From NCBI GenBank assembly GCA_017518185.1, contig JAFWWB010000019.1, positions 1 through 46,337 of the forward strand: a stretch of 46,337 bases of DNA, read 5' to 3'. The position numbers were made by a program, and so were the translations under genes. The notes below the pieces were generated by a model, which saw nothing but the letters and a program-made list of their open reading frames with translations, had not been told where the DNA came from and did not search any database. Shown in pieces: positions 12,054 through 39,200 of this stretch. Source of the stretch: Lachnospiraceae bacterium. GTDB lineage: Bacteria; Bacillota; Clostridia; Lachnospirales; Lachnospiraceae. Every line of letters begins with the position of its first letter. The first letter of the stretch is position 1.

Positions 12054-12059
12054 AGCAGT

Positions 12060-13070: not shown

Positions 13071-13122
13071 AATGGACATGTGACTGCACCTGGCTACAGA
13101 CAGTGTATTTAGTTTCCGGGAA

Positions 13123-14121: not shown

Positions 14122-14144
14122 AAGACTGAAAGGTTAACGGACCG

Positions 14145-15014
14145 GTGGGGATCAGGATAAGCGTTGTGGTAGCAACGCTGAATTGCGAAAAAGTGATAGA
14201 ACAGTTTCTGAAGAGCTATGCGGAACAGGACTATGCGGACAGGGAGCTGATCGTGATAGACGGAGGCTCTTCCGATGATACGCTGAAGATAGTTGAACGA
14301 TACCGTTCCGAAACGGCGATCATAATCTCGGAGAAAGACCGTGGCGTATATGATGCATATAATAAGGGTATCGAAAGGGCAAGCGGAGATTATGCGGTAT
14401 TCTTCGGCGCTGATGATGCTTTTTATGATAAACGGACTCTGAGTAATGTCGCGAAGACTATCGTCAGGGAAAATGCTCCGGATCTTTTGTGTACAACGGT
14501 GCTTTATGTTGACAGGGCATGGGCGTATATAGAAAAGAAAAGGGTGCTATACGGATGGGAAGAAGGCCTTAAGCGGAAACAGCCGATGATACCGCATCAG
14601 GGACTGTATGCAAAAACAGAGATCCTGAGGGAGCATCCTTTCAGCTTAAGGTATGATATCTCTTCGGATCTGGAATTCTATCTGTATTGTCATAAAACCC
14701 GAAAGAATATAAAATACATCGACAGGGTTACCGCATTCTTCAGCCGCCAGGGGCTCTCTTCGAACAATGAGATCAAACGAAAAAGGGAAGAGAATGAGAT
14801 CCTGGCTCATTACGGAGAAGAGAAGACGGAGGATCACGGCGGCAGTGAATTGCGAAGAAAGCTCCGGCAATGGCTCTGCAGGTATAAAGCGGGAATGATC
14901 CTGATGATCCGTTTCCGAGGGTTCAGGATACATAAGTGCGGAAACGCCTGCTGCAGGTGGTGTGCGTATAACAGGATGAAAACGGGATATAAGGGATTGC
15001 GGATGAGACTATGA
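14145..15014 (+). CDS. Glycosyltransferase family 2 (WcaA/colanic-acid type)
   Basis: The 289-residue GT-A enzyme has ISVVVATLNCEKVIEQFL, the loop VIDGGSSDDTL and YAVFFGADDAFYD, a pattern (IDGGSxDxT ... ADD) close to PglI/WcaA-like transferases. The C-terminal 50 residues are strongly basic and Cys/Arg-rich (CRYKAGMILMIRF), probably a peripheral membrane helix. The start is GTG at 14145; the first conserved strand follows within three codons, so an upstream start is not needed. Its stop lies 14 bases from the stop of the convergent radical SAM gene, and no terminator is visible between them. Confidence 0.87.
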   Translation: MGIRISVVVATLNCEKVIEQFLKSYAEQDYADRELIVIDGGSSDDTLKIVERYRSETAIIISEKDRGVYDAYNKGIERASGDYAVFFGADDAFYDKRTLSNVAKTIVRENAPDLLCTTVLYVDRAWAYIEKKRVLYGWEEGLKRKQPMIPHQGLYAKTEILREHPFSLRYDISSDLEFYLYCHKTRKNIKYIDRVTAFFSRQGLSSNNEIKRKREENEILAHYGEEKTEDHGGSELRRKLRQWLCRYKAGMILMIRFRGFRIHKCGNACCRWCAYNRMKTGYKGLRMRL

Positions 15015-22735: not shown

Positions 22736-23300
22736 GGAATTTGCGAAGCTTTTCGGCATATATGCCGTGCTGGTGGTACTGGGCACCCTGCTTTATATAG
22801 TTAGTTTCAGGACGCCTCTTTTCGGAGGCATGGATGTGTTCTTCTACAGGGGCATAGCCATAATAATCTTCTGGGGGGCGGTGATAGCCGCGGCCATGGC
22901 GCTGCTTAAGCGCTTTAAACAGTTTAAGGAGCTTATCACGGTGCGTGACATACTGCTGCTTTTTGCGGGCTTCTGCTGTGTCCATGTGGTGATATTCACC
23001 CACCTTCCGGTGACAGCGGAACGCTCCATCTCTGTGTTCATGCTGGGCTACATGGCGGACAACGCTGATAAGAGCTTCACCGAAGATGACATCGAGCAGT
23101 ATTTCGTGGACCGCTATGTGGGGGATTACGGCGCCTTCGAGAAGCGTTTCCACGAGCAGCTGGTGACGGGAACCATCGAGGAGGCAGGAGACGGACGTTA
23201 CAGGATCACGGAGGGGGGAAAGAAGCTCATGAAGCTCTATGACGCCGTGGCGGACTGGTACTGTATAGATAAAAAGCTGATACATTCCTCCCAGCCTTGA
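22725..23300 (+). CDS. Small membrane protein with cytoplasmic winged-helix-like tail
   Basis: I do not recognise a named family. The 191-residue protein has three hydrophobic segments (about 10-28, 40-63 with IAIIIFWGAVIAAAMALL, and 72-92 with DILLLFAGFCCVHVVIF). A soluble C-terminal half follows, containing GTIEEAGDGRYRITEGGKKL, whose strand-turn-strand then helix pattern resembles the wing of a winged-helix domain. It overlaps tadA by 11 bases, so it is translated from the tadA mRNA. Its stop codon lies inside the -35 box of the SRP RNA promoter. A role in membrane-linked sensing is a guess. Confidence 0.8.
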   Translation: MSFKEFAKLFGIYAVLVVLGTLLYIVSFRTPLFGGMDVFFYRGIAIIIFWGAVIAAAMALLKRFKQFKELITVRDILLLFAGFCCVHVVIFTHLPVTAERSISVFMLGYMADNADKSFTEDDIEQYFVDRYVGDYGAFEKRFHEQLVTGTIEEAGDGRYRITEGGKKLMKLYDAVADWYCIDKKLIHSSQP

Positions 23301-23326
23301 CAGGGAAGGGGCTTTACGGATATAAT
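23297..23326 (+). promoter_or_regulatory. SRP RNA gene promoter
   Basis: TTGACA (23297-23302), 18-base spacer, TATAAT (23321-23326). The predicted start (~23333) coincides with the first paired base of the RNA. The -35 includes the TGA stop codon of the upstream gene (23298-23300). Confidence 0.85.
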
Positions 23327-23329
23327 AAG

Positions 23330-23602
23330 TCGGTCGTGCAACCGGGGCGGTAGCGGTGCCCTGTACCCTCAGTCCGCTTTAGAGGGGGTGATGGCCTGTT
23401 TGAGGGCGTTTGCCGGTATGGCTGCCCTGTATAAGCGATGTTGAAGTCCGGGTCCTGCGCAATGCGTGCCCGTGAACCGTGTCAGGGTGGGAACACAGCA
23501 GCACTAAGCGGGAATTCGTATGTGCCGTGGGGGTGCTTGGGCGGAGTTGGCTGTACAGGTAACGCATGTTGGTTTGGTTCGAGACCGGGCCGCACGGCTT
23601 TT
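23330..23602 (+). ncRNA. ffs: Signal recognition particle RNA, long clostridial form
   Basis: The RNA is about 270 bases and has both Alu and S domains. The Alu part shows GGTAGCGGTGCCCTGTACCC near 23350, the loop-loop region typical of Gram-positive long SRP RNA. The Ffh-binding helix 8 is at about 23480-23515: CAGG, then stem GTG-GGAA-CAC with a GNAR-type tetraloop, then AGCAGCACTAAG. The ends pair perfectly (GTCGTGC at 23333-23339 with GCACGGC at 23592-23598), followed by a TTTTATTT run as terminator. Any reading frames inside it are not genes. It is part of the co-translational targeting complex with Ffh. Confidence 0.93.
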
Positions 23603-23612
23603 ATTTGGGATC

Positions 23613-25577
23613 ATGACAGCTATCTTGTACATATTGTTATGCATCATGAGCGGAAGGGCGGTACTGGACGCCTTGTTTCCGGCCTACAGGAAAGCAGGGA
23701 AGGATCTCCCTGCTGTTTTTGTGTGTTTTCCTTTCTGGTATATAACGGGCACTATGCTGGTCAGCTGGTGCGTCTATATCCTCGCCGTTGCAGTAAAGAA
23801 GATCAGCGGCAGCAGGCAGCCCCTACTGGCGGCAAACATCATCGCGGGCCTTATATTCCTGGGAATAGTGATACTCTCATATATATTTAAGAAATCAGGG
23901 AAAAGAACGGCCCTTCCGGATCTGTGGGAAGTGTCCGGCGCCGATCCGGATGAGAGCGGCTTCCGGCGTTTCCTGAAGCCCGCGGCATACTTCCTGCCGC
24001 TCATACTCTGTCTCATATTTGTCATCAGGATGATGTATCACAGCTTCAGCATAAAAGGCGGGAATCTTGAGGTGGGCTTTTCTGTCTTCAGCGATTTTGC
24101 GGTGCATCTCGGCCTCATACGTTCCTTCTCCTCCGGGGCAAACTTCCCGGCGGAGTATGTGCACTTTGCGGACGGTGACATACGTTACCATTTCCTTTTC
24201 CAGTTCATGGCCGGAAATCTGGAATATCTGGGACTTCCCATACATCATGCCTTTAACATACCCTCGGTGCTTTCTATGATGAGCGCCCTCATGCTGCTCT
24301 TCGTGCTGGGAAGGCAGGTAAGCGGCAGTATAGCCGGAGGCTGGCTTTCGGTGGTCTTTATGCTCTTCCGCTCATCACCGAGCCTCTTTACCTATTTTGC
24401 GGAGGGCGGGACCCGTGATGCCCTTAAAGGCCGCATAGACCATTTCGATTATACGGACCACGAATCCTGGGGACTCTGGAGCCTGAAGGTCTACCTGAAC
24501 CAGAGACACCTGGCCTTCGGCATGGCCCTGTGCCTTATGGCGGTGCTGGTGTTTCTGCCGCTCATGAGGAAAAAGCCGGGCATTTTTAAGAAGGAAGCCA
24601 TACTTCCTGAAGATATAGCCAGGGGTGTGGTTATGGGTATACTGCTTGGCGCGGCGGCCTTCTGGAACGGGGCCATGGTCATAGGAACGCTGTGCGTGCT
24701 CTTTGTGATGGCGTTAATGTCAGATCACAGGCTGGAATATCTGGTAACTGCGGTGATCGCGGTGGTGATGTCCCTGCTTCAGACGAAGATCTTCATACAC
24801 GGCAGCAGCTTCAGTCCGGAGCTGTATTACGGCTTCCTGGCGGAGCACAGGAACATAGCCGGAGTGATCTCATTTCTCCTGCGGCTCTGCGGAGCACTGC
24901 TTCCCGCGCTGCTGGTGTATTTCTGCCTGGCCAAAGGGCAGAAGCGGCAGGCTATGGCGGCCTTTGCGGCGCCCCTCATATTTGCGCTCCACGTTTCACT
25001 GACTCCGGATATCGCGGTGAACCACAAGTATATCATGCTCTCGCTGGTCCTTCTGGGGACTGCGGCGGCGGCCATGTGCGTGAACCTCTTAAAGGGAAGG
25101 CGCATCGCGGCGAAGCTCCTGGGCGCAGGGCTGGCCCTGATCTTTACGGTCACGGGAATGTGCGAGTACAATATTAACCGGAACATGGATAAGTATAAGA
25201 TGGAGTATGAGATGAACGACGGCCTCAGGGAATGGGTCAATAAGGAAGCCGAACCCGGGGCTGTGTGGCTTTCGGACAGATGCTCCTTAAACAGGCTGGT
25301 GCTCTGCGGGGTGCGGCTTTATTACGGCTGGCCCTACTACGCCTGGAGCGCAGGCTATGATACCTTCGCCAGGGAGGAGACGGTGGTGGAGCTTTTCGCC
25401 CTGAGGAATCCGGAAGCCCTGAAGAGCCGCCTTAAGGATGAAGGCATCAGATATGTATACGTTGACGGCGAGCTGAGGAACAGCGAGACCTACGACTTTT
25501 CGGAGGAGACCCTGGCCGAGGCTCTTGAACTTGTATGGCAGGATGAAAAGGCTGCGGTGTATGAGGTGAAGGACTGA
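23613..25577 (+). CDS. Polytopic membrane protein, GT-C glycosyltransferase-like
   Basis: The 654-residue protein has about 12-13 predicted transmembrane helices and a soluble C-terminal segment after about residue 540. The first large outer loop (HLGLIRSFSSGANFPAEY ... DIRYHFLFQF) resembles the acidic substrate loop of GT-C enzymes and parallels the corresponding loop in the DUF2298 protein encoded next. The C-terminal part (WLSDRCSLNRLVLCG, then RYVYVDGELR) also parallels that protein's tail. GT-C enzymes move a sugar from a polyprenyl-phosphate donor outside the membrane. The start at 23613 is chosen because earlier in-frame codons fall inside the SRP RNA; ATG is 11 bases after the RNA's U-run with only a weak GGGA ahead. 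Its stop overlaps the next ATG by one base. Confidence 0.8.
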   Translation: MTAILYILLCIMSGRAVLDALFPAYRKAGKDLPAVFVCFPFWYITGTMLVSWCVYILAVAVKKISGSRQPLLAANIIAGLIFLGIVILSYIFKKSGKRTALPDLWEVSGADPDESGFRRFLKPAAYFLPLILCLIFVIRMMYHSFSIKGGNLEVGFSVFSDFAVHLGLIRSFSSGANFPAEYVHFADGDIRYHFLFQFMAGNLEYLGLPIHHAFNIPSVLSMMSALMLLFVLGRQVSGSIAGGWLSVVFMLFRSSPSLFTYFAEGGTRDALKGRIDHFDYTDHESWGLWSLKVYLNQRHLAFGMALCLMAVLVFLPLMRKKPGIFKKEAILPEDIARGVVMGILLGAAAFWNGAMVIGTLCVLFVMALMSDHRLEYLVTAVIAVVMSLLQTKIFIHGSSFSPELYYGFLAEHRNIAGVISFLLRLCGALLPALLVYFCLAKGQKRQAMAAFAAPLIFALHVSLTPDIAVNHKYIMLSLVLLGTAAAAMCVNLLKGRRIAAKLLGAGLALIFTVTGMCEYNINRNMDKYKMEYEMNDGLREWVNKEAEPGAVWLSDRCSLNRLVLCGVRLYYGWPYYAWSAGYDTFAREETVVELFALRNPEALKSRLKDEGIRYVYVDGELRNSETYDFSEETLAEALELVWQDEKAAVYEVKD

Positions 25578-27775
25578 TGAAGGCAAAAGGATGGGTATTT
25601 CTGATCCTGACCATGCTGGTGATATGGGCAGGGATAATGCTGACGGGAGAGGACGTGCTTCCGGCCATATGCTGGTATGTCATGCTCCTGGTGATAGCCA
25701 TAGGCTTCTACCCTCTGGCCTCGCTGCTCTTCCCGCGTTTTGCCGACAAGGGCTTTGCCTTCGGCGGTGTCCTGGGCTTTATCTGCTGTTCCTGGCTCAT
25801 GTGGATTTTGTCATCACTGCATATTCTGCCCTTTACCACGCTCTGGGTGGTGGTCACCGCAGTGATCTGCATGGCGGCGGTGTGGATAACGGCCGCTCTG
25901 GATAAGCGCAGATCCTTAAAGATCCTGGTAACGGAACTGCCGATGGAAGAGATACTCTGCCACATCTTTGTCTTTACCCTGGCCTTTTTCTTCTTTGTAT
26001 ACGTAAAGTGCGTGAACCCGGATGCCTACGGTACTGAGCGGATGATGGATTACGCCTTCATGCAGACCATGTACAGGAGCCCTTATATGCCTGCGGAGGA
26101 CATGTGGTTTGCCGGGGAGAGCATAAATTATTATTACTACGGCCAGTATCTCTGCACTTACCTGACGAAGCTGGCCTTCACTGATGTGTCTTTCGGTTAT
26201 AATCTTTCGCTCTGCATGTGCTTTGCGCTCTGCGTCACACTGGTATTTTCCCTGGCGGGAGAGGCGGCATCTTTCAGGAAGATCCCTCTGTCCCGTCCCG
26301 TGACCTCGGTACTTTCGGTCATCGCGGTGTGTTTTGCCGCCAGCTCACACTATATCATCTTCAATTTCCTGATACCCCACCTGTGGGATATGATGAAGCT
26401 GGAGGGGAATAAGCCCTCCTTCTGGTATGCGGATGCAACCCGCTATATAGGCTACCATCCCGATACCGATGACAAGACGGCCCACGAGTTCCCGGCTTAT
26501 TCCTTCCTGCTGGGCGACCTCCATGCTCATGTGATAAACATCTTCGTGGTGCTCACCATACTGGCCCTGCTGCTCTCCTTCATGAAGCAGCATACGGAAG
26601 AGGATGGGTACAAGCCGAAAAAAACGGCGCTGGATCCGAAACTCATGCTTATCGGAGGGCTGCTTGGCATAAGCATGATGGAGAATTTCTGGGATTTCCC
26701 CATCTATTTTATCGTGGCAGGTTCGGTGCTGCTGGCCATAAGCTTAAGGAGCGGAATGACGGGAAAAGAGGTGGCACTTACCACGGCCCTGCAGGGAGTG
26801 GAGGTACTGCTCATTGCCTTCGCCGTATCCCTGCCCTTTCATCTGGGCTTTAAGGGCATGGTCAACGGCATAGGCATAAGTGAAAAACATACGCCTGTAT
26901 ACCAGCTGGCGATACTCTGGGCCCTGCCCCTGTCACTGCTGGCGGCGCATATCATAGCCATGCTGGGACAGGCTGAGGGAGAGAATTTAAGGGCTGTCAT
27001 GCGTTCCTTTGACAGGGCCGAACTCTTTATCGCCCTTATCGGTCTCTGCGGCGCGGGATTGATACTGATGCCCGAGCTCATTTATATCAAAGATATCTAT
27101 ACCGGCTCCTACAAGCGTTTCAATACGATGTTCAAGCTGAGCTACCAGGCCTTCATATTACTCGGTCTGTGTACAGGCTTCAGCGTCAGCCGCATGGCCT
27201 TCAGGCACAGGACTCCGGGAGAGAAGAAATGGGGCATCATAGCCCTGGTGCTCCTTATATGGACCGGAGGCTATTTCATCACGGGACTCCGGATGAGCGC
27301 CGGAAATATCTTTGACAGGGAAAAGTTCAAGGGACTCCGCGCCGACCGTTATCTGGAGAGGGAAGAGCCTGCGGATGCCATGGCGGTGGAATGGATAAAG
27401 TCGAATGTTCCCGCCGGCAGCCTGGTGCTGGAATCGCCGGGAAGCAGCTATACCCTGAACAACAGGGTCTCCGTACTTACGGGCTGTCCCACCATAATAG
27501 GGTGGCATACCCATGAATGGCTCTGGAGGAACAACGTGGATGTGGTGAACGAAAGAGGCACGGAGGTGGACAATATCTATACCTCCGCCGATACGGCTCA
27601 TGTACGCGGCATACTTGAAAAATACGGCGTGGACTATATCTTCGTCGGCTCCTGTGAATATGAGAAATACGGGCTGACCATGGACGTGAACAGGCTCATG
27701 CATTACGGAGAGCCTGTCTACAGCGCCCAGGGCGAAAGCAGTGAAGTGGATTATGTGATAAAGGTGGAATTATGA
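25577..27775 (+). CDS. DUF2298 (Chlor_Arch_YYY) family membrane protein, probable GT-C glycosyltransferase
   Basis: This 732-residue polytopic membrane protein shows the hallmarks of DUF2298: MMDYAFMQTMYRSPYMPAED, then WFAGESINYYYYGQYL, then FPAYSFLLGDLHAHV, then KRFNTMFKLSYQAF and the terminal WHTHEWLWR. About 14 hydrophobic segments are visible. The family is considered a GT-C-type membrane transferase of unknown acceptor, common in Chloroflexi, archaea and some Firmicutes. It starts one base inside the preceding gene's stop and ends with ATGA overlap into the ATP-grasp gene. Its paralogue-like upstream neighbour suggests the two act as a pair or on successive steps of one glycan. Confidence 0.87.
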   Translation: MKAKGWVFLILTMLVIWAGIMLTGEDVLPAICWYVMLLVIAIGFYPLASLLFPRFADKGFAFGGVLGFICCSWLMWILSSLHILPFTTLWVVVTAVICMAAVWITAALDKRRSLKILVTELPMEEILCHIFVFTLAFFFFVYVKCVNPDAYGTERMMDYAFMQTMYRSPYMPAEDMWFAGESINYYYYGQYLCTYLTKLAFTDVSFGYNLSLCMCFALCVTLVFSLAGEAASFRKIPLSRPVTSVLSVIAVCFAASSHYIIFNFLIPHLWDMMKLEGNKPSFWYADATRYIGYHPDTDDKTAHEFPAYSFLLGDLHAHVINIFVVLTILALLLSFMKQHTEEDGYKPKKTALDPKLMLIGGLLGISMMENFWDFPIYFIVAGSVLLAISLRSGMTGKEVALTTALQGVEVLLIAFAVSLPFHLGFKGMVNGIGISEKHTPVYQLAILWALPLSLLAAHIIAMLGQAEGENLRAVMRSFDRAELFIALIGLCGAGLILMPELIYIKDIYTGSYKRFNTMFKLSYQAFILLGLCTGFSVSRMAFRHRTPGEKKWGIIALVLLIWTGGYFITGLRMSAGNIFDREKFKGLRADRYLEREEPADAMAVEWIKSNVPAGSLVLESPGSSYTLNNRVSVLTGCPTIIGWHTHEWLWRNNVDVVNERGTEVDNIYTSADTAHVRGILEKYGVDYIFVGSCEYEKYGLTMDVNRLMHYGEPVYSAQGESSEVDYVIKVEL

Positions 27776-28728
27776 GTACGACCGTTTTAATAACTGCAGG
27801 CGGAACGGGATCCGCTTTCAGGCTGAGCGAGACCGTAAAGCAGCACTTTCCGGGATACCGCCTTGTGATCAGCGATACGAATCCGGAGGAACTGGTGGCT
27901 TCTGCCGTGAATGCGGATGTCTTTTACCGTGTGCCGCCTGTAAAGGAGAATGGCTATAAGGAGCATATGTACGGCCTGCTTAAGGAATGCGGGGCGGATG
28001 TCATCATTCCCCTCATACCCTGGGAGCAGGAGTTTTTTGCACCGGACTGCAGTGAATTCGCGGCACTTGGCGTAAAGAGCGCCGCTGCGGAGCTTAAGAC
28101 CCTGGGGCTGAACGACAAGAAGCGCCTTTATGAGATCTGTGCTTCACTGGATATTCCCACGGTGCCCCTGCTTACATATGGCAGCATCCCGGAGGGGGAG
28201 AGGATCATAGTAAAGGAACGCAGCGGCTTCGGCAGCCTGGGCATACGCCGTATGAAGGCGGGAGAGCTCGGGGCCGATCCCGGGGACGGATACGTGATAC
28301 AGCCCGACCTGAGCGGAAAGGGAAGCTTTCCCGATGCGGTGGAGGAAGTGACGTTGGAGTGCGTGCTCTCAGCAGGAAAGCTCTATACCATTGCCAGGAG
28401 AAGGCTTGAGGCCAAAGGGGGCGTATGTACCAAGGCGGATTTCCTGCCTGCGGAAGCCTTCATCGGCGCGGCGGAAAAGCTTACGAAGGCCTTTGCATTT
28501 CCGCCTGCTTTTAATCTGCAGTTCGTTCATGCAGGGGATGAGTGGCTTCTTATGGATGTGAACTTGAGACTTGCGGCGGGGGGCAGCGCCTCGGAAGCCG
28601 CGGGCTTTCAGATATCCAGGGCGCTGGTGGCCCTGCTTACTGGGAAAGAGGCGGACAGCGCCTGGCTTAAGAGAGATGAGAGCGTAAAGACCGTGCTCCG
28701 CGTATACCGGGAGGTGGTTGTCCGTTGA
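27772..28728 (+). CDS. ATP-grasp domain ligase (carbamoyl-phosphate-synthase-like)
   Basis: The 318-residue soluble protein has a preATP-grasp Rossmann part (VLITAGGTGSAFRLSETV), then the ATP-grasp domain. ATP-binding lysine region IIVKERSGFGSLGIR, the central PDLSGKGSFPDAVEEV segment and the metal-binding strand WLLMDVNLRLAAGGS (D-x-N-x-R in place of the more usual E-x-N-x-R) are visible. Such proteins join a carboxylate to an amine or thiol via an acyl phosphate. The substrate is not evident; in envelope operons members modify sugars or link amino acids to glycans. It overlaps both neighbours by 4 bases. Confidence 0.83.
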   Translation: MSTTVLITAGGTGSAFRLSETVKQHFPGYRLVISDTNPEELVASAVNADVFYRVPPVKENGYKEHMYGLLKECGADVIIPLIPWEQEFFAPDCSEFAALGVKSAAAELKTLGLNDKKRLYEICASLDIPTVPLLTYGSIPEGERIIVKERSGFGSLGIRRMKAGELGADPGDGYVIQPDLSGKGSFPDAVEEVTLECVLSAGKLYTIARRRLEAKGGVCTKADFLPAEAFIGAAEKLTKAFAFPPAFNLQFVHAGDEWLLMDVNLRLAAGGSASEAAGFQISRALVALLTGKEADSAWLKRDESVKTVLRVYREVVVR

Positions 28729-29414
28729 TAGCATTCCTGGATCTGGACGGCACGCTCATAGATTCTTCGGAAAGGCACCATGTGCTCATGGAGAGCCTGG
28801 TCAGCAGCCGCTGTGCATATATCAGGCAGGGAGGATCCGTCTGCGGAACCCTGCCGGGAAAGCCCTTTGATGCTAAGGAGTATATGGAGTTCAAGGCCTC
28901 CGGAAAAAGCGGAAAGCTTTACCTTAAGGATGTGCTTGGCTTTGATGATGCTTCGGCGCAGATGATACAGAAGGCCTGGATCGCGCAGATAGAGACAAAG
29001 GAACTGACGGACACTGACAGGCTCTATCCCGATGCACTGCCTTTTCTTGAAAATCTAAAGGTAAACGGGTATCATACTGTATATCTGACGGCGCGCAGGG
29101 AAAGGGAGCTTCTGGAGGATGAGCTCGAACGTCTTGACATCAGACGCTATGCTGATGAGCTCGCCATTGCCGATCCCTTCCGGGCCTTCGACGAGAAGCT
29201 TGCCCTTGCGGAAAGGATATTGAAAGAACATCCCGGGGAAGAGGCACTCATCGTGGGCGACAGCGAGAACGAATACGATATTGCTCTTACACTCGGGATA
29301 AGGTCATACATATTGAACAGAGGATCCAGAAACAGGGTTTTCTGGGATGAAAAAGGCGTGGGGAGCCATGACGGGCTGCCCCGCGGGATAAAGGAGAACG
29401 GAGATGTTTTGTAA
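28725..29414 (+). CDS. HAD superfamily hydrolase (paired with the ATP-grasp ligase)
   Basis: The 229-residue protein has HAD motif I DLDGTLIDSS at residues 5-14, motif II in YLTARRERELL, a motif III lysine in FDEKLALAERIL and motif IV VGDSENEYDIALT. It has an alpha-helical cap between I and II, so a small-molecule phosphatase is expected. The start is TTG at 28725, overlapping the ATP-grasp stop (TTGA). Direct coupling to an ATP-grasp gene suggests it removes a phosphate from the ligase's substrate or product. It overlaps the next gene by 11 bases. Confidence 0.87.
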   Translation: MIAFLDLDGTLIDSSERHHVLMESLVSSRCAYIRQGGSVCGTLPGKPFDAKEYMEFKASGKSGKLYLKDVLGFDDASAQMIQKAWIAQIETKELTDTDRLYPDALPFLENLKVNGYHTVYLTARRERELLEDELERLDIRRYADELAIADPFRAFDEKLALAERILKEHPGEEALIVGDSENEYDIALTLGIRSYILNRGSRNRVFWDEKGVGSHDGLPRGIKENGDVL

Positions 29415-32247
29415 AAACTGTGGAACACCACTGGCAGACGAGGATGCATTCTGCCCGAATTGCGGTACTGCAGTGACCATCCGTCCGAACAGCACTAATA
29501 AGATAATGCCTCCGTCGCAGACGGATCAGGTACCGCCCCCGCCTCAGGTAAATGTGGCACCGCCGCCGCAGATAAATGTGGCTCCGCCCCCTCAGGCAGC
29601 GTATGCGGCAGGGGCTGCGGCAGCAGGGACAGCAAAAAAGCTTTCGGGCGGCCTGATCGCAGGCATTTCCATAGGGGCGGTGGCCCTGGTGGGAGCTGCC
29701 GTGGCAGCTGTGCTGATATTTACCCATCCCGGGGATGAGGATGAGGGCAGCCGCCGCAGCAAGGACAAAAAAAGCTCCGGGATAACAGCGGGAGAGGAAG
29801 AAGTTACAGAAGAGGGCGGCGAAGAAGGCGCAGGAGAGAGCGGCACCGGAAGCGTGGCCGAGGAAGAACGTGTAACAGACCTGGTGCTGCATCTTATGGA
29901 TGCCAATGTGGATGACGAGGGCATAGCCGGGGTCACCCTTACCCTGTACGAGGGGGCGGATGCCGGCGGCACCTCCTATGCCGTTACCTCCACGGACAAT
30001 TCCGGTACCGCGTTATTTGAAGCGCTTCCCGAAGGGGAGTACACCCTTATCTGCGATAAGGACGGATATGTCCGGGATAAGGAACAGATCAGCGTGAGCA
30101 GCACGCAGAACGAGATCTCCAGACGTCTCCTTCATGAGTTTGAAGCGCCTTTTGCCTATGTGATGCTTGAATGGGAAGGGGACCGGGACATGGACCTGGT
30201 GCTCTACAACGATTCCACCATGGAATATGTAAGGGAGTATGCGCCGGTGGACCGTTCCGGAAACTTTCTCTTTTCCGATAATTCCGGGGACAAGGGATAC
30301 GAGCTGGCCTGCATAAGGGAATGCGACGCACCCTTTGAGCAGGATGTGTTTGTTTTGGATTACGACGCCGTAAACGGCAGCAGCAGCGCCGGAGACTTTA
30401 CGGTCACCGTTTATACCGCTGCGGGCATAGCATACAGAAAGGCCGTGGATACGGCGGAGAGCCCGGCCTTCAGGGCGGGAGGCTTTAACGGCGGCAGCTT
30501 TACGGGGGCAGACCGCTTCGAGAGCGGCGAAGAGGAATGGATGACGGTGGACAAGAGGGATGAAGCCTCTGTCCATAACCTGGAACTGACCCTTCTTGGT
30601 AAGAAGGTTGAGCTTTTGAACGGCAGCAGCGGCCTTGCAAATGATGAGCTGGAGCTCCAGTCCGTGGAGTTTGAACCGGGCGTCAGGAATATGGCAGACC
30701 ACTGGGACAGCTCCCTTTTCTATTATCTGGAGGATGTGGATCCCGGCAGCAGCGCGGACGGTAAGATCAACGATTACATACTCACCCGCCGCAGGGCCCT
30801 GAACACCACCACCGGTAATGAGATGGAGTTCGAGATATACCGCAACCCCGACAACAACAAGGTGAATAAGATAGTCAGCATAGAGTACTATCCCGATCAT
30901 CTCGGTATCTTTGACTATTATTTTGATAATCAGGGAAAGGTCAACATGATCTTTGCCAGGACGGATATGAACTACAGGCCCATCCAGCCCAATATGACGC
31001 TGGCCGGAGATTATTATTTCCTTGCCAACGATACGGTCACCAGACGACGTATAATCCGCAAAAAGGGAAACAGGACCGAGATCACGGATTATGTGACAGG
31101 CATGGACAATGCCTCCGACGGCTTCAACACCATCGAATACGACAACATGACCGATGCCCAGAAGCAGGGTTTTGACACTGAGGAGCTGGTGGGAGTCAAC
31201 AGCGCCTACAAGATATACCGATTCGTGAATTCCTCCGAGGCATCCTGCGCCATCACCGGCTATATCTACGATAAGGACGGAAATGTGCGTCCCGGAGCGG
31301 ACGTGGTGCTCTCCTGCGATGACAGGGATCTTTACTCCGTCCGTACCGACAGCGAAGGCGGCTACCGCATCTATGTGGCGGCGGAGGAAAGGCAGTACGA
31401 CCTTGACCTTTCCTACAGCGGCTGCGAGAGCGTAAGGGTTTATGATGTGGAGGTGGAACCCTCCGCGCTGGAGGTCTATGAGGACAGCGCCTACCTGGTC
31501 CCCGCTTCCGACACCGTAACTAATGTTACCATGGACGTTACCGATGCACTGAACTTCAATCCCAACGGTGAGGGCATGCTGAGGATAGCCAATGCGACCC
31601 TGTATATAAGAAAGGGCATGAATAACCGGAAAGGCGATGTGGTGGCCACCGTATATACCGACGCCAACGGATACGCCTATGTACCTCTGAGCCCCGGTAT
31701 GTACACCGTGGAGGTGGAAAAGGAAGGCTACGATAACTTCTTCATGAACATACATGTATATGAAGGCCTGTCCACCGTATACCTGAGCACTTCGCCGAAG
31801 CTGGCGGAGGGTGAGGTGCGTATACAGCTTACTTGGGGCCAGACCCCCAGTGACCTGGATTCCCATCTCTTTGCGCCGTACACATCAAGGGGCGAGCAGC
31901 ATATCTGGTACAGCAACAAGACCATCAGCACTGGAGAAAACCTGGATGTGGACGATACCTCCAGCTACGGTCCCGAGACCATCACCATACCCGCCCTTAG
32001 GGATGGCGAATACAAGTACTACGTGGTGGACTACACCAATTCCAACCGCAACAACTTCTCCTACGAGATGTCCTATTCCGGAGCTACGGTGCGCGTATAC
32101 ACTTCACACGGACTCACCAACACCTGGCACGTGCCCCAGGGTATGCAGGGTATCATATGGGAGGTCTTTGAGATGCGCAACGGCCGTATCATTCCCATAA
32201 ACCGTTATTATACCTACAATAACGATCAGGACTGGTACGCACATTAA
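29404..32247 (+). CDS. Zinc-ribbon membrane protein with large outer beta region (DUF2135-like end)
   Basis: The 947-residue protein opens with a double zinc knuckle (C3, C6, C17, C20: FCKNCGTPL ... FCPNCGTAV). A proline repeat (NVAPPPQ twice) and a transmembrane helix at about 78-107 follow. The rest, about 840 residues, should be outside the cell. It includes carboxypeptidase-regulatory/CnaB-like Ig folds near 155-235 (LPEGEYTLICDKDGYV), near 613-690 (ITGYIYDKDGNVRPGAD) and near 715-800 (LSPGMYTVEVEKEGY). The C-terminal segment LTWGQTPSDLDSHLF looks like DUF2135. No signal peptide precedes the zinc ribbon, so an N-in topology is predicted. Translation is coupled to the HAD gene. Substrate of the outer domains may be the glycan made by this operon. 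Confidence 0.82.
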   Translation: MFCKNCGTPLADEDAFCPNCGTAVTIRPNSTNKIMPPSQTDQVPPPPQVNVAPPPQINVAPPPQAAYAAGAAAAGTAKKLSGGLIAGISIGAVALVGAAVAAVLIFTHPGDEDEGSRRSKDKKSSGITAGEEEVTEEGGEEGAGESGTGSVAEEERVTDLVLHLMDANVDDEGIAGVTLTLYEGADAGGTSYAVTSTDNSGTALFEALPEGEYTLICDKDGYVRDKEQISVSSTQNEISRRLLHEFEAPFAYVMLEWEGDRDMDLVLYNDSTMEYVREYAPVDRSGNFLFSDNSGDKGYELACIRECDAPFEQDVFVLDYDAVNGSSSAGDFTVTVYTAAGIAYRKAVDTAESPAFRAGGFNGGSFTGADRFESGEEEWMTVDKRDEASVHNLELTLLGKKVELLNGSSGLANDELELQSVEFEPGVRNMADHWDSSLFYYLEDVDPGSSADGKINDYILTRRRALNTTTGNEMEFEIYRNPDNNKVNKIVSIEYYPDHLGIFDYYFDNQGKVNMIFARTDMNYRPIQPNMTLAGDYYFLANDTVTRRRIIRKKGNRTEITDYVTGMDNASDGFNTIEYDNMTDAQKQGFDTEELVGVNSAYKIYRFVNSSEASCAITGYIYDKDGNVRPGADVVLSCDDRDLYSVRTDSEGGYRIYVAAEERQYDLDLSYSGCESVRVYDVEVEPSALEVYEDSAYLVPASDTVTNVTMDVTDALNFNPNGEGMLRIANATLYIRKGMNNRKGDVVATVYTDANGYAYVPLSPGMYTVEVEKEGYDNFFMNIHVYEGLSTVYLSTSPKLAEGEVRIQLTWGQTPSDLDSHLFAPYTSRGEQHIWYSNKTISTGENLDVDDTSSYGPETITIPALRDGEYKYYVVDYTNSNRNNFSYEMSYSGATVRVYTSHGLTNTWHVPQGMQGIIWEVFEMRNGRIIPINRYYTYNNDQDWYAH

Positions 32248-32270
32248 AAGATTTTTAGGAGGAAACGCCT

Positions 32271-34235
32271 ATGAGAAAAAATCGGATCAAAGCGGCCTTA
32301 ACCGGACTTATGACGGCAGTGATGCTGGGAGCCTGCACCGGGGACAGCGGTGTATCCGCGGACTCAGTGAAGGAAAGTGTTACCCCTGAGGCTCAGGAAG
32401 CGGAGCAGAAGCCTGAAGAGGGCGCGGAGAGCGGAGAGAAGGGCACAGAAGAGCCCGGAGCGGAAGGCGGCGTGAGCGCTGCCACGGGAGATATGCCCGA
32501 GCGCTCCTCTGTGACACAGGCTGAGCTTGAGAAGATGAGCTCCGTGGAACTGGCCCGCTTCATGGGCAACGGCATAAACCTGGGAAATACCATGGAGGCC
32601 ACGGACAATACCAACTGGAGCAGGCGGGACGTCAGCTTCTGGGAGACCTACTGGGGACAGCCCGTTACCACGCAGGAGATGATAGACGACATGAAAAACG
32701 CCGGTCTTGACACGATCCGCATTCCCGTGGCCTGGACTAACGGCATGGATGTGCTGAATAAGGATTATACCATAGACCCGGCGCTGCTCTCACGCGTTAA
32801 GGAGATAGTGGACTACGCCTACGCCGACGATATGTTCGTGGTGCTGAACGACCATTGGGACAGAGGCTGGTGGGGCATGTTCGGCTCCGAAGATGCAGCC
32901 CAGCGTGACGAGGCCTGGGTACTCTACGAGAGCATGTGGACCCAGGTGGCAGAGTATTTTAAGGATTATGATCATCATCTGATCTTCGAAGGCGGCAATG
33001 AGGAGATAGGCGACAGGTTAAATGACATAAACGACCAGCTGAACCCCCGCGGCGCCGTCCTCGGCAAGGATGAGTGCTATCAGAGGGCAAACGAGATAAA
33101 CCAGCGTTTTGTGGATCTGGTGCGTTCCACCGGAGGAAACAACGCCACCCGTTTCCTGCTCATACCCGGTTACGGCACCGATGTTACCCAGACTCTGGAC
33201 GAGCGCTGGCATATGCCTACGGACAGCGCGGAGGGCAAGCTCTTTCTGTCTGTACATTATTACACCCCCTGGAATTACTGCGGCGGCAGCGGTTCCTCCA
33301 CCTGGGGCACGAAGAAAAACTATGAAGAGATGGACAGGCTCATGGGAAGCCTGGATAAATACGGCAAAGACTACGGTATCATCATAGGCGAATGCGGAGT
33401 GCTCCCCGCCTCCGATGGCGGCCTTAAACCAAACACCCTGCTGTGGATGACCCACTTCTTTGCTTACTGTGACCTCAAGGGCTATGTGCCCCTGCTCTGG
33501 AACACTGGGGACATACTGAAAAAATATACGCATCAGTGGATAGATCCGGAATACGAGCAGTTCCTGAAGGATAATTCCTACGAGAGCCAGAGGGCTGCAT
33601 ACGGCAGCTATGAGGCGGTGGCTGCGGCTGCGGAAGAAAAGCTGAAGGCCGGAAGGGACGCGGCTCCCGAGACCTTCCAGACTGATGCCATACTTTCCGG
33701 CGACGGTAAAGCCATTGCCTGGATAATGTGGAACTCTGCGGGCTGGGATATGGCCTACAGCGTGGGGGATACTTACAACCCGGATGACATCACCGCGGGG
33801 CTTATCCCCGGCGTGACCGAGATAACCGGTGAAGGGGAGTATGAGGTGTCACTGGATTTCACCGGCACCGACAGGGGCTATTCCAACAGCACCGCTTTCT
33901 CCGCCATAGGCATCTCCAACGGTGAAGAGCTCTTCCCGGGCTATGTGATCACCATAAAGGAGCTGCTGATAAACGACGAGCCCTATGAACTTCACGGACG
34001 AAATTATACCTCTTCCGATGACGGTCTCTGCACCAGGACCAATCTCTATAACGGCTGGGTGGCTTCACCTCCCTCCGATGCAAGGACCATAGGCGGCGGC
34101 CTTACGGGTGCATCTCCCCAGATCCTGGATCCTGCGGATGAAGCGCTTCAGGAGGTCAGGACGATAAAGATAGTCTTCAGTTATACACCGGGCGCGGAGG
34201 GGATATCCCCTAATGATGCGAACTCAAAGAATTAA
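32271..34235 (+). CDS. GH5 endoglucanase-like lipoprotein with C-terminal carbohydrate-binding-type domain
   Basis: The 654-residue lipoprotein has a signal peptide ending in the lipobox LGAC (Cys22), an acidic linker to about residue 80, and a GH5 (beta/alpha)8 domain at about 88-440. Visible GH5 features are GNGINLGNTMEA, IRIPVAWTNG, LNDHWDRGWW, acid/base E244 in FEGGNEEIG, FLSVHYYTPWNY and nucleophile E374 in IIIGECGVLP. The final ~190 residues form a beta-rich module (IAWIMWNSAGWDMAYSV, FTGTDRGYSNSTAF) likely to bind polysaccharide. It probably cleaves beta-1,4-glucans or mannans. A strong AGGAGG site precedes ATG by 8 bases, and 23 bases separate it from the zinc-ribbon gene. Its last 12 bases overlap the convergent HAD gene. 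Confidence 0.92.
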   Translation: MRKNRIKAALTGLMTAVMLGACTGDSGVSADSVKESVTPEAQEAEQKPEEGAESGEKGTEEPGAEGGVSAATGDMPERSSVTQAELEKMSSVELARFMGNGINLGNTMEATDNTNWSRRDVSFWETYWGQPVTTQEMIDDMKNAGLDTIRIPVAWTNGMDVLNKDYTIDPALLSRVKEIVDYAYADDMFVVLNDHWDRGWWGMFGSEDAAQRDEAWVLYESMWTQVAEYFKDYDHHLIFEGGNEEIGDRLNDINDQLNPRGAVLGKDECYQRANEINQRFVDLVRSTGGNNATRFLLIPGYGTDVTQTLDERWHMPTDSAEGKLFLSVHYYTPWNYCGGSGSSTWGTKKNYEEMDRLMGSLDKYGKDYGIIIGECGVLPASDGGLKPNTLLWMTHFFAYCDLKGYVPLLWNTGDILKKYTHQWIDPEYEQFLKDNSYESQRAAYGSYEAVAAAAEEKLKAGRDAAPETFQTDAILSGDGKAIAWIMWNSAGWDMAYSVGDTYNPDDITAGLIPGVTEITGEGEYEVSLDFTGTDRGYSNSTAFSAIGISNGEELFPGYVITIKELLINDEPYELHGRNYTSSDDGLCTRTNLYNGWVASPPSDARTIGGGLTGASPQILDPADEALQEVRTIKIVFSYTPGAEGISPNDANSKN

Positions 34236-34826
34236 AGCAAGATCTTCCTTTGCCTGTTCATAAGATTTAAAAAGGATGCCGTTTATGCCCAGCGCACAGG
34301 CGGCATCTATATTTATCTGACGGTCGTCTATAAAGGCGCATTCCTCCGCCTTAAGGCCGTAGCGTGTAAGCAGCAGCTCATATATCCGGGGATCCGGTTT
34401 TGACATGCGCTCAAAGCCGCTGACCACTTTGCCGTCAGCCAGCTCCGTAAAGCGGAAATGCTTTTTTTCATGTATCGTGAAGACATCCCTGGGATAATTT
34501 GAGAGAAGATAGACTCCGAGGCCCCTGTCCTTCAGCTCTTTAAGCCAGTCATAGCTGTAGGGATAGGAGGCCGCGATATCCTCGATGTGGTCGAAAAATA
34601 CTGCTGCTTCTTCCGGATATTCCGAAACAGCAGCTTTCATCTCGTTTATGATGACTTCGCTGTCCTTTACGCCAAGGTCGAACTCATTCCAGAGCTCGTT
34701 CATCACAAGCCTTTCCACGAAGAGCTCGGTGAGCTCTCCGGAAAAGCCCAGGTCCTTCTGCATATAATCCCTGTAGCGGAAATCGGCAAGGACATTGCCT
34801 ATGTCGAAGATGACGTTTTTTATCAT
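34224..34826 (-). CDS. HAD superfamily hydrolase (haloacid dehalogenase/YihX type)
   Basis: The 200-residue protein starts MIKNVIFDIGNVLADF, the variant motif I DIGNVL typical of YihX-like sugar-phosphate phosphatases and epoxide-hydrolase-like HADs. It also has motif II YLLSNYPRDVF, a KPDPRIYELLL lysine and FIDDRQINIDAA as motif IV. The four-helix cap lies between about 15 and 95. Start at 34826 is chosen because the catalytic strand begins immediately after it and it overlaps the pilin-like gene by 4 bases (ATGA), pointing to coupled translation. It converges on the GH5 gene with a 12-base overlap and no intervening terminator. Confidence 0.88.
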   Translation of the reverse strand: MIKNVIFDIGNVLADFRYRDYMQKDLGFSGELTELFVERLVMNELWNEFDLGVKDSEVIINEMKAAVSEYPEEAAVFFDHIEDIAASYPYSYDWLKELKDRGLGVYLLSNYPRDVFTIHEKKHFRFTELADGKVVSGFERMSKPDPRIYELLLTRYGLKAEECAFIDDRQINIDAACALGINGILFKSYEQAKEDLALIL

Positions 34827-35329
34827 TGGATGCAGATACAGTTGCCTATATCGGTCCAGACCGATCCGGTATTGGCTGTGTATTCCTTCTTGCCGGTGAT
34901 GTCCGTATAGGTAGCCCACATTGCCAGAGGGTTCATAAAGCCGCCCTTATATTGCACGTAGATCTCCATCTGCGCGTCATCGTGTGATGATGAGATATAC
35001 TCCTTATAGGTGGAGCGGTCCAGGTCCTGCCAGTCGAGGGAGTCCAGTATCTCCTTGCCGAAAAGGGTGTCGGTATCGATATCTTCCAGCTTCGTCGGAC
35101 CCAGAAGCTTGTCGATCTCAGCCTGGGATGCCGGTTCGAGAACTACATCGGGGTCATTGGAGGCATAAACTACTGCCTGATATATGGTGTCCAGAGTCTG
35201 AAGATCGGAGGAAACTTTGGATTTCTCGATATACTTGATAAGCTGGGGGGCGAGCACACCCACCAGTATCGCCATGATCGCTATGACGACTATCAGCTCC
35301 ACAAGGGAGAAACCTTTATCATTTTTCAT
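34823..35329 (-). CDS. Type IV pilin-like protein
   Basis: The 168-residue protein has a classic class III prepilin signal: short basic leader MKNDKG, cleavage before F7, Glu at position 5 of the mature chain (FSLVE) and the hydrophobic helix LIVVIAIMAILVGVLAPQL. The remaining ~135 residues are a globular domain resembling major pilins or pseudopilins of Clostridia. ATG at 35329 is preferred because GGGAGG lies 9 bases ahead; the in-frame ATG at 35338 directly abuts that motif. No pilus ATPase, PilC or prepilin peptidase genes are present, so the protein must use machinery encoded elsewhere. A TATACT -10-like box lies about 25 bases upstream. Confidence 0.87.
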   Translation of the reverse strand: MKNDKGFSLVELIVVIAIMAILVGVLAPQLIKYIEKSKVSSDLQTLDTIYQAVVYASNDPDVVLEPASQAEIDKLLGPTKLEDIDTDTLFGKEILDSLDWQDLDRSTYKEYISSSHDDAQMEIYVQYKGGFMNPLAMWATYTDITGKKEYTANTGSVWTDIGNCICIQ

Positions 35330-35418
35330 AACTTCCATCCTCCCACCGCAAGTATAGAACATGGAGACCCGTTGAAAAAGGGGTTTTATGCGTATTTGTT
35401 CATATTTCGTTAACATAG

Positions 35419-36247: not shown

Positions 36248-39200
36248 ATGAAAAAATCGAAAGTGATGAAGAGAGCGATAGCATTGTTCTGTTCGCTGAG
36301 TATGATGTGCGGCAGCTTATATGCGGAAAGTGAGATACTTTTCTCCGGCAGCAGAGTCTATGCGGCGGAGGAGGAGACTGTGAGCATCGATGACGCGGAG
36401 GAAAGCGAAGTCGGCGATGACCCCTCTGTGTCATTCCGAGCGGAGCGCAGCGAAGTCGAGGAATCTTACAATGACGAAACTGAATCTTTCGACGACGAAA
36501 CCGAGTCTGTAGACGAGGAAGAGCCCGGCGAAGCCGAAGAGGCCTTTGAGGCGGAGGAGGAAGAGCCCGAAAGCGTATCCGCGGATGAGATTGATGAGGC
36601 TGAGGACGAAGCTCCCGCAGCTTCAGAGGAGCCTGTCGGAGCGGTAACTCTCACACAGTCACAGCTGGAAAAGTTTTACCATTATGAAGAGGATCCGAAT
36701 GTTGAAGACGGCTTAAAGCTTTCACTGACAGCCGAATTCAGGCAGGCGCTCAACACTCCGGGAGGAAGCCTTACTGCGGGGGATTACACCTGGAAAGAAT
36801 TCGACCCCGTACCCGATCCCGGTGTGGAATACGTGGACGATGAAGGGCATTCATATGCGATCACCAGCATTTCAGGCCTGTTCGCGGATCTGGATAAAGT
36901 AACGGAGATCGATATGTCAGGCTGGAATTCCGATCTGGACCGCCCCTACAGGGATATGAGCGGTATGTTCAGAAGCTGCGGCAAACTGGAATCCCTGGGA
37001 AACAGCCTGGGTCTTGCGCTGGACACCAAGGAATGTACCAATATGACGAGTATGTTCTATTTCTGCAGCTCCCTGAAGTCCATTGGGATATTTATGTCTA
37101 CGGAGAAAGTAGAGAGCATGGCAGGAATGTTCCGTTACTGCACTAAGCTTGAGAAAGTGGAATTCTATAACACGGATACTTCCTCTCTTGAGAAAATGAA
37201 TTTTATGTTTGAGTCCTGTTCTTCTCTTAAATGGCTCAATCTTGAGAGCTTCGGTACCGGCAAGGTAAGAGAGATGTATGGTGCTTTTGAGGGCTGCTAC
37301 TCCCTGGAAAAGCTGAACCTGTCAAACTTTGATTTCTCGTATATCGAACCGGAAACGGGACACAGCGCCGTCGGAAGTGATGATATATTCGACACGGCCG
37401 GAACAAAAGGCTCCGGCCTGAAGATCTATGTCCGCGATGAAGAGGCAGCGGCATTTATAAAGGCTGAGAAGCAGAACACCGCTTATGACAGTGACCGTAT
37501 GGAAGTGATCGTATTTGATCTTAATTCCCTGGATGATGATTTCCTGGGCATGATCTACGTTTATACTGAGCTTCCCGACGGAACCTTTAAGCTTTCACTG
37601 AATGATACCATGAAGGGATCGTATGTTACAGGCGGAGGGGTATTCTACCAGCTCTTCTATATGGCCGGCGGCGCTCCTCTTCCCAACCCTGATTCTGTCA
37701 ACAGCATATATCACGGAAAGATAAGCAGCTATGAGGAGCTGTTCCGGGGGATGCACTCGGAGGTCATAGATATCTCCTTATTCGACGGCAAGACCATAAC
37801 GGATATGAGCGGTATGTTCTTCCGCTGTGAAAAGGTCCAGACAATAAAGATGGGAGCTTTTCAGCCCCGTTCGGATGCGAAGACCGATAACATGTTCTAC
37901 ATGACCGGCTGCGGCTCGTACAAGACAGGATCGGGAAGAAGGGAGCATTATGCTGATGCTCAAGCCTGGATATCCGGCAGCAGCGCGGAAACGGTCTTTA
38001 AAAAGGCGAATACCAAATGGGAGGAAGCGAAGCTTAAGTTTAAGGTCAAGAGAAAGGTGATCCTGGATTACGGCGGGAAGATACCGAATCAGGTGATCAA
38101 CGTAACGGATGGAACCGCGATCGGTACGTGGCCCCAGTCCTACAGCGGATACAAGCTGACAGGCTATTACAGTGATAAAGAGCTGACGCAGCCATTTGAT
38201 ATAGAGAACACACCCATAACCCGCGATATGACCCTCTATGCAAAGTGGGAGTACAACCTCCAACTCAGTGAGAAGGAGCTGGAAAGCTTTTATGATTACT
38301 GCTATAACGGTGAAGACCTGCGGCTCCAGCTGAACGATAACTTTAAAGAGATCCTTAAGCAGGAAGAAGGGGAATACTGGGTAAAAAGGGATGACGGGAT
38401 AAATTCTTATGTCTGGCATGTGGGTGATCCTCTTCCGGATCCCGGGAGCACGCATCATTACGGTGACAGGGAGCTTCCGGTGACCAGTTATTCCCGCTTG
38501 TTCATTAACAGCAACGTACAGATCCTGGATCTCAGTAAGTGGGATACCTCAAATGTCACCGACATGTCATCCATGTTCGAAAGGCTTTATAAAATAAAGA
38601 AGCTGGATGTAAGCTCCTTTGATACTTCGCACGTAACGACTATGAAAAATATGTTCGTGTATTTCGGTGCATATTCCGATTTCGACACCCTTGATCTCAG
38701 GAATTTTGACGTGTCCCGGGTCACGGATCTTGATTCCCTGTTTGAATTCGCAGATATACGGAGCATCAATATCGACAGCTGGAAGACAACTTCCGCTGCC
38801 GATATGGATTATCTGTTCTGGTGCTGTTATACCGACGAGATATATATGAGGAGTCTGGAGTTTCCTGAAGGCTGTACCTATGATAAGTTCTTCCAGAACA
38901 ACAAGGCGATCAACGGAGAGGGTGAAACCTATGTGTATGTGAAGAACTCAAAGATGAGGCTGAATTTCCTGGAAAGATCCGGGGAATATGGTACTGCGAA
39001 GCTTAAGTTTGTGTCGGCGCTGGATCCCGGAGAGTTTTCCGATTCCGAACTGGATTACTTTTATATTTATGATACCTATCAGGTGAAGGGCCTTAGTGTA
39101 AGCCTTAAGCCGGAATTCAAGGCGGCTCTTGACAAGGCGGACGGCGAATATGCTCTGCCCGGCGGTACTTACACCTGGCGTGCGGGGGATCCTCTCCCCG

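Follow-up and report, generated by a model that had tools for sequence, protein, structure and literature searches.

Two kinds of described system come closest to the locus presented here. The Pgf system of Streptococcus mutans is encoded by pgfS-pgfM1-pgfE-pgfM2 and is described together with the adhesins Cnm and WapA; according to the sections of PMC5856776 drawn on here, PgfS adds the sugars. In multi-component transmembrane glycosylation, exemplified by CsbB-GtcA-YfhO and kin, the relevant sections of PMC8035078 describe a lipid-sugar synthase of glycosyltransferase fold A (GT-A), a flippase and a glycosyltransferase of fold C (GT-C) on the outside. A third point of reference is type B flagellin of Clostridioides difficile, for which the ATP-grasp protein CDR20291_0245 has a predicted role in making a peptidylamido-sugar (PMC5207246, in the part considered). 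The locus itself is a six-gene run in a gut bacterium of the family Lachnospiraceae (assembly GCA_017518185.1, contig JAFWWB010000019.1, positions 1 to 46,337; this stretch of 46,337 nucleotides is hereafter the window). By analogy, it appears to resemble the Pgf and multi-component transmembrane systems in its gene logic, short of demonstrated membership.

The run proved to be an operon of two conserved modules, a GT-C pair (genes 1 and 2) and an ATP-grasp-HAD pair (genes 3 and 4), with two local surface genes added behind them:

23613..25577, + strand: gene 1 (GT1), membrane protein of 654 residues with predicted GT-C fold (structure match), from an unnamed family that is a sister of DUF2298
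25577..27775, + strand: gene 2, DUF2298/TIGR03662 membrane protein of 732 residues with predicted GT-C fold (family scores, structure match)
27772..28728, + strand: gene 3, ATP-grasp enzyme with a PylC-like N domain, 318 residues (PF15632, PF21360)
28725..29414, + strand: gene 4, hydrolase of the HAD superfamily with a TTG start codon (PF00702)
29404..32247, + strand: gene 5, zinc ribbon, one transmembrane segment and CarboxypepD_reg/SpaA-like domains, 947 residues (PF13240)
32271..34235, + strand: gene 6, endoglucanase-like lipoprotein of glycoside hydrolase family 5 (GH5), 654 residues (PF00150)

A sequence-only reading of the window had listed these genes as one overlapping run, and open reading frame (ORF) coordinates and family scores confirm its layout and domain names: neighbouring frames overlap by 1, 4, 4 and 11 bases and 23 bases separate gene 6 from gene 5. 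By eye, purine stretches resembling ribosome sites precede the starts.

The likeness to Pgf lies in the clustering of two multi-membrane-spanning proteins, a glycosyltransferase and a sugar-nucleotide enzyme beside a Thr-rich LPXTG adhesin, as laid out in the same sections of PMC5856776; moreover, in one relative the best match of the family-2 glycosyltransferase (GT2), though below threshold, is to the PgfS model. On the other hand, that source assigns PgfM1 to the PMT-2 family (PMT, protein mannosyltransferase) with PgfM2 as its homologue, whereas GT1 and DUF2298 stand here; Pgf has an epimerase where the Lachnospiraceae relatives have a mutase, the host operon contains neither GT2 nor mutase, and ATP-grasp-HAD is without a Pgf counterpart. 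A GT-C role for PgfM1 and PgfM2 would be our own extension by analogy. With CsbB-GtcA-YfhO the locus would share a GT-C enzyme on the outside (the synthase and flippase scheme is that of PMC8035078, in part), but here two GT-C proteins of the DUF2298 kind are paired, and no flippase was identified, none having been sought. CDR20291_0245 likewise lies within a glycan-modifying cluster, but it carries PF13535 rather than PF15632, and a HAD partner is found here (PMC5207246, same part).

Gene 2 belongs to DUF2298 (348.2 bits, cut-off 27.8) and to TIGR03662, chlor_Arch_YYY (529.5 bits, cut-off 300.25). Gene 1 represents a distant sister family of DUF2298 that reaches no curated cut-off in Pfam or NCBIfam; Dpy19 scores 18.8 bits against the Pfam cut-off of 27.2. 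A function as C-mannosyltransferase was considered for gene 1 and rejected, since Dpy19 stays under its cut-off and DPY19 is among the fold matches without leading them. Neither gene matched a PMT family, PMT-2 of Pgf included, at an E value of 0.01 in Pfam or NCBIfam, and sequence searches of the PDB with a profile of each gave no useful match. The predicted structures of gene 1 and DUF2298 match oligosaccharyltransferase (OST), AglB, ArnT and PMT enzymes over most of their length; the leading rows are mostly OST, and tied with them is ALG12, an enzyme that does not glycosylate proteins. On these models both proteins are members of the GT-C fold superfamily. Invariant residues are D161, H165, D189 and H193 in gene 1 (D161 across an alignment of 22 sequences) and E154, D158, D314, H316 and H318 in DUF2298 (E154 and D158 across an alignment of 37 of 39 sequences, one fused and one truncated sequence being excluded). 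D161 of GT1 and E154/D158 of DUF2298 may form the acidic motif of GT-C enzymes in a loop that would face the outside. Family, predicted fold and conservation thus all back the earlier proposal of two membrane GT-C transferases acting outside the membrane. Literature searches returned no assigned function for DUF2298 proteins, no account of the GT1-DUF2298 pair among GT-C enzymes, and nothing useful on lipid-linked galactofuranose or on Lachnospiraceae GT-C enzymes with a mutase.

The pairing of the two genes was followed in 200 genomes of the Lachnospiraceae, the family to which the host is assigned, in a set of 35 genomes referred to as the genus and in 391 genomes of the class. DUF2298 occurs in 28 family genomes, G071 and G108 having weak matches, and in 22 genus genomes. 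Gene 1 matched in 17 family genomes, 13 strong (>700 bits, a threshold chosen after the scores were seen) and four weak (25-58 bits). All 13 strong genomes contain DUF2298, as do the weak ones G090 and G108. By coordinates, the pair is linked in ten of the 13 and unlinked in G004; in G055 and G089 one gene of the pair is broken by contig ends and linkage was not shown. In the genus, gene 1 lies directly 5' of DUF2298 in 15 of the 22 genomes, host included, the others being G004, G200, G204, G218, G222, G225 and G229. Among the best 80 of 306 gene 1 relatives in a contig collection, 64 loci carry DUF2298 on the same strand, 13 lie less than 3 kb from a contig end and three on longer contigs are without DUF2298; the nearest loci come mostly from metagenome-assembled genomes of rumen Lachnospiraceae. 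Between linked GT1 and DUF2298 we found UDP-galactopyranose mutase (GLF) plus GT2 in 30 loci (the order GT1-GLF-GT2-DUF2298 is seen in G127, L047) and GT2 in 11; the other 23 have neither, and in one of them the gap exceeds 2.6 kb. A candidate for the GT-A lipid-sugar synthase is thus present in 41 of the 80 loci, the role being suggested by sub-threshold matches of one member. The ORF caller, which greedily takes the longest frame, missed genes lying beneath antisense ORFs (L139, L068, L071); the surveys of pair linkage and of surface proteins searched all frames. Duplicate loci (L032, L149, L154, L156) were omitted from some counts.

An unnamed membrane protein of 504 residues, c18 (L076:2124-3635 and L074:8264-9775, the former copy without Pfam or NCBIfam match), stands ahead of DUF2298 in G222 and G225, where gene 1 would be expected, and ahead of ATP-grasp in G200 and G204. 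It is perhaps a third GT-C type.

Gene 3 is a member of ATPgrasp_Ter, PF15632 (44.3 bits, cut-off 29.1), with 2pn1 as closest solved chain, and its motifs MDVNLR and GVCTKA are invariant in 18 genus sequences. Gene 4 is a HAD protein, PF00702 (49.8 bits, cut-off 26.4), which keeps DLDGT and GD.ENE, with D6, D8, G9, T10, G178 and D179 invariant in an alignment of 15 sequences. We take the conserved motifs of both proteins to be active-site motifs. ATP-grasp orthologues are present in 18 genus genomes including the host (the other 17 at 45-55% identity; four more genomes have weak matches only), and the HAD orthologue adjoins them in at least 15 of these 18 loci, host included. In the family sample 19 genomes match, strongly just G000 (466 bits) and G004 (563 bits), the next score being 81; a single-protein ATP-grasp scan of the contig collection gave 103 stretches and no relative, and a literature search on ATP-grasp with ter genes yielded nothing useful. 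In G222, ATP-grasp-HAD is followed on its 3' side by UDP-galactopyranose mutase (410.7 bits, cut-off 303.75), PseI (476.1, cut-off 340.25), PseG (154.1, barely over its cut-off of 153.55), GT2, an epimerase and an acyltransferase with a PseH-like part (40.3, below the cut-off of 93.1) and a GtrA part. The mutase and the pseudaminic-acid-type genes PseI and PseG fit the suggestion of the sequence-only reading that ligase and phosphatase prepare a modified precursor.

In the window, gene 1 lies 15 bases 3' of the end of an RNA gene that recurs at this place in other genomes:

23297..23326, + strand: promoter-like TTGACA-18-TATAAT, 12 of 12 consensus matches, ranking first among 16 sites when the region was scanned on either strand
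23334..23597, + strand: large signal recognition particle (SRP) RNA (RF01854, 171 bits, gathering threshold 60)

According to gene orders read from coordinates, SRP RNA is the next gene 5' of gene 1 in G221, G230, G214, G209, G216, G220, G210, G226 and G208. A DUF4364-like gene intervenes in G217, G228, G213 and G212, and in G211 together with one further ORF. SRP RNA is followed by c18 and DUF2298 in G222 and G225, directly by DUF2298 in G004, and by CAP-family genes and ATP-grasp in G205 (plus small ORFs), G206, G231 and G223. In G209, G216, G220, G208 and G213 it was the small-SRP model that matched, whereas the DUF2298 loci of G200, G204, G218 and G229 yielded no SRP RNA. In the genus, surface-glycan genes seem to have a hot spot at the place 3' of SRP RNA.

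A large surface protein is encoded 3' of DUF2298 in 10 of the 21 other genus genomes. It ends in a sequence resembling a sorting signal in G210, G230, G226, G214, G222 and G225 and runs off the contig in G004, G213, G228 and, after one extra gene, G211. In eight of these ten proteins the share of Ser, Thr and Pro in a stretch of 60 residues peaks at 0.50-0.75, against 0.40 in the visible part of the G211 protein and 0.28 in G228; the domains that were scanned are SpaA/FctA or putative adhesive domains. In the remaining 11 genomes DUF2298 is followed by GLF (G208, G220), a phosphodiester glycosidase (G209), GH18 (G216), a YfhO-cluster protein (G200, G204, G218, G229) or no clear surface gene on the same strand (G212, G217, G221). 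On the side of the second module, a sorting-signal protein lies within about 2 kb 5' of ATP-grasp in eight of the 17 other loci; among the nine without it, G229 has no upstream sequence. Sorting signals were defined by a pattern in a custom script and would imply anchoring by sortase.

The sequence-only reading had suggested a search for the order DUF2298-ATP-grasp-HAD-zinc ribbon. Linkage of DUF2298 with ATP-grasp-HAD does occur in two other genomes, G222 and G225, with a single surface protein gene between DUF2298 and ATP-grasp-HAD (counted here for both modules). Both contig ends of G004 (L067:1-1376, L084:1-1340) lie within one TATP surface-protein repeat, which is likely an assembly break; the DUF2298-side and ATP-grasp-side frames of G228 have a stretch of 18 residues in common; and in G211 both contig ends fall in surface-protein frames whose identity as one protein was not established. 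These three genomes are compatible with a joined locus DUF2298-surface protein-ATP-grasp without proving it. The view that only three genomes link the two modules was rejected, because contig ends in repetitive surface-protein genes may hide links.

We consider it an even call that the locus encodes a Pgf-like transmembrane glycosylation system that decorates a surface protein or a wall polymer. The most economical account of the observed gene order, families, predicted folds and co-occurrence is that a transmembrane glycosylation module and a sugar-modifying module occupy a surface-glycan site of variable content, which in the host holds two further surface genes. ATP-grasp enzymes commonly join an amine to a carboxylate. 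In the proposed pathway, ATP-grasp and HAD would form a precursor-modifying pair, the former probably making such a bond on a sugar precursor and the latter taking phosphate off it. We further infer a lipid donor, a sugar and catalytic activities for the enzymes, with both modules acting on one glycan. The surface protein with a sorting signal, often located beside each module, would be the most likely acceptor in the genus; in the host genome, the zinc-ribbon membrane protein and the GH5 lipoprotein follow and no surface protein stands between the modules.

Several observations weigh against this reading. GT-C folds modify lipids and polysaccharides too. The operon contains neither GT2 nor GLF, the sole GLF match of the genome being on another contig, and no flippase, although no search was directed at flippases (GtrA domains surfaced in the G222 cluster). 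ATP-grasp and DUF2298 co-occur in the genus at chance level (both in 11 genomes, ATP-grasp only in seven, DUF2298 only in 11, neither in six; p 1.0), but the Fisher values count related genomes as if independent and come from loci picked around these genes, and so are not true probabilities. The weak gene 1 genomes G171 and G181 are without DUF2298. Gene 1 matched in 38 of the class genomes, with >300 bits in 24 besides the host; outside the family, DUF2298 is present in 17 of these 24 and linked in four, divergently. By these linkage counts, set beside those for family and genus, the two genes are closely tied within Lachnospiraceae and only loosely outside the family. No Thr/Pro-rich surface protein accompanies the GT-C pair in the host window, and no sorting-signal protein was found in 67 more distant gene 1 loci (L173-L239, at most 8 kb per side and often less, placed outside the genus on the assumption that identity is a guide), five of which contain seven Ser/Thr/Pro-rich frames. 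Finally, PgfM1 itself is regarded as not predicted to be enzymatic in the sections of PMC5856776 used here.

A more specific proposal, which we put forward tentatively and consider possible, if doubtful, is that of an SRP-RNA-linked, hitherto undescribed surface-glycoprotein factory of rumen Lachnospiraceae, in which the OST-like GT-C pair, from an unstudied superfamily, would O-glycosylate the adjoining Thr/Pro-rich sorting-signal protein. The sugars would be a furanose and a pseudaminic-acid-like sugar with an amide modification, ATP-grasp and HAD completing the precursor of the latter. For DUF2298, the present data supply a predicted GT-C fold, a partner family unnamed in Pfam and NCBIfam, a hint at the donor (UDP-galactopyranose mutase plus GT2, a gene order that many Lachnospiraceae share) and a candidate acceptor for the pair, the latter in a single genus.

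Alternatively, the GT-C pair may decorate a glycolipid or a secondary polymer of the cell wall (of the teichoic-acid or polysaccharide kind), as in CsbB-GtcA-YfhO, and be close to surface proteins simply by sharing the hot spot behind SRP RNA. This is possible, if doubtful: the surface proteins 3' of DUF2298 in 10 of the 21 other genus genomes speak against it, and so does the predominance of OST in the top fold rows, although ALG12 ties there and the fold does not decide the acceptor. For the second module, production of a small diffusible metabolite or modification of a non-glycan, with only location in common with the GT-C pair, is improbable. It would agree with the chance-level co-occurrence in the genus (p 1.0) and with the order SRP RNA-CAP-family genes-ATP-grasp without DUF2298 in G205, G206, G231 and G223 (HAD orthologue called in three of the four), but in G222 ATP-grasp-HAD leads a run of sugar-nucleotide and nonulosonate genes, and sorting-signal proteins lie 5' of ATP-grasp in eight of the 17 other loci.

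The zinc ribbon of gene 5 (33.1 bits, cut-off 25) is N-terminal, ahead of a single hydrophobic stretch near residue 79, and carboxypeptidase-regulatory-like domains are also present. Judged from this order, the protein, placed outside the cell by the sequence-only reading, probably has its ribbon in the cytoplasm and its remainder outside. Its family is multi-copy, with several matches each in 24 of the 35 genus genomes, coverage being partial apart from the self-match; the host has five matches (itself included) and G204 has 12. The GH5 lipoprotein label of gene 6 holds (145.9 bits, cut-off 23.5): NE at 243 and 274 and GECG at 373 are presumably the catalytic Glu regions, both present, the lipobox-like start is what we take to justify the term lipoprotein, and the closest solved chains are ordinary endoglucanases of the Cel5C type. 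GH5 matches occur in 29 genus genomes: the host, four near full-length (G202, G203, G219, G227; 46-50% identity) and 24 weaker ones that mostly cover the catalytic part. DUF2298 was not matched in any of the four (G202 is 77%, G203 67% and G219 81% complete), and none of genes 1-5 was seen among the ORFs called around their GH5 genes. Genes 5 and 6 look like local additions to this operon. A loose parallel to these host genes is seen in G204, G200 and G218 (L155, L157, L158), where a YfhO-cluster protein, then a GH9-cluster gene and a zinc-ribbon protein come after DUF2298.

That all six genes form one dedicated system building, displaying and trimming or sensing one glycan, as the sequence-only reading had it, is largely refuted and very improbable. 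In its favour are the overlapping genes of one apparent operon and, in G200, G204 and G218, the GH9-cluster gene about 6 kb and the zinc-ribbon protein about 8 kb 3' of DUF2298. Against it, zinc-ribbon relatives are multi-copy (host 5, G204 12), none of the four genomes with another full-length GH5 has a DUF2298 match (three of these genomes are incomplete), and no other locus examined holds the full set, the outcome that the sequence-only reading had itself named as refuting. Linkage does recur for the core: gene 1 with DUF2298 (15/22 including the host, 64/80) and, in two other genomes, DUF2298 with ATP-grasp-HAD. The related idea that the locus degrades and senses a dietary glycan found no support for genes 1-4.

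The host genome measures 3.3 Mb at 99.77% completeness. GC and GC3 of the operon resemble those of its neighbours, and a recent foreign origin was rejected on this composition. Gene 1 starts with the ATG at 23613; the ORF caller's listing begins at 23520, and this longer frame was discarded because its start falls within SRP RNA. The site at 23297..23326 is a candidate promoter for SRP RNA and, by read-through, the operon. The interval between SRP RNA and gene 1 contains merely a weak terminator-like site; at 23693-23714, within the start region of gene 1, a hairpin of eight pairs is followed by GTTTTTGTGT, which might serve as an attenuator or mark where the transcript of SRP RNA ends. Elsewhere on the contig, Pfam finds four GT2 genes in a row at 11133-15014. 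A second HAD-like gene (34224-35416, - strand), convergent with the GH5 gene, adjoins a type IV pilin-like protein, the names of both coming from inspection of the translations, and 36248-41524 encodes a protein of 1758 residues with DUF285/PARCEL and leucine-rich repeats.

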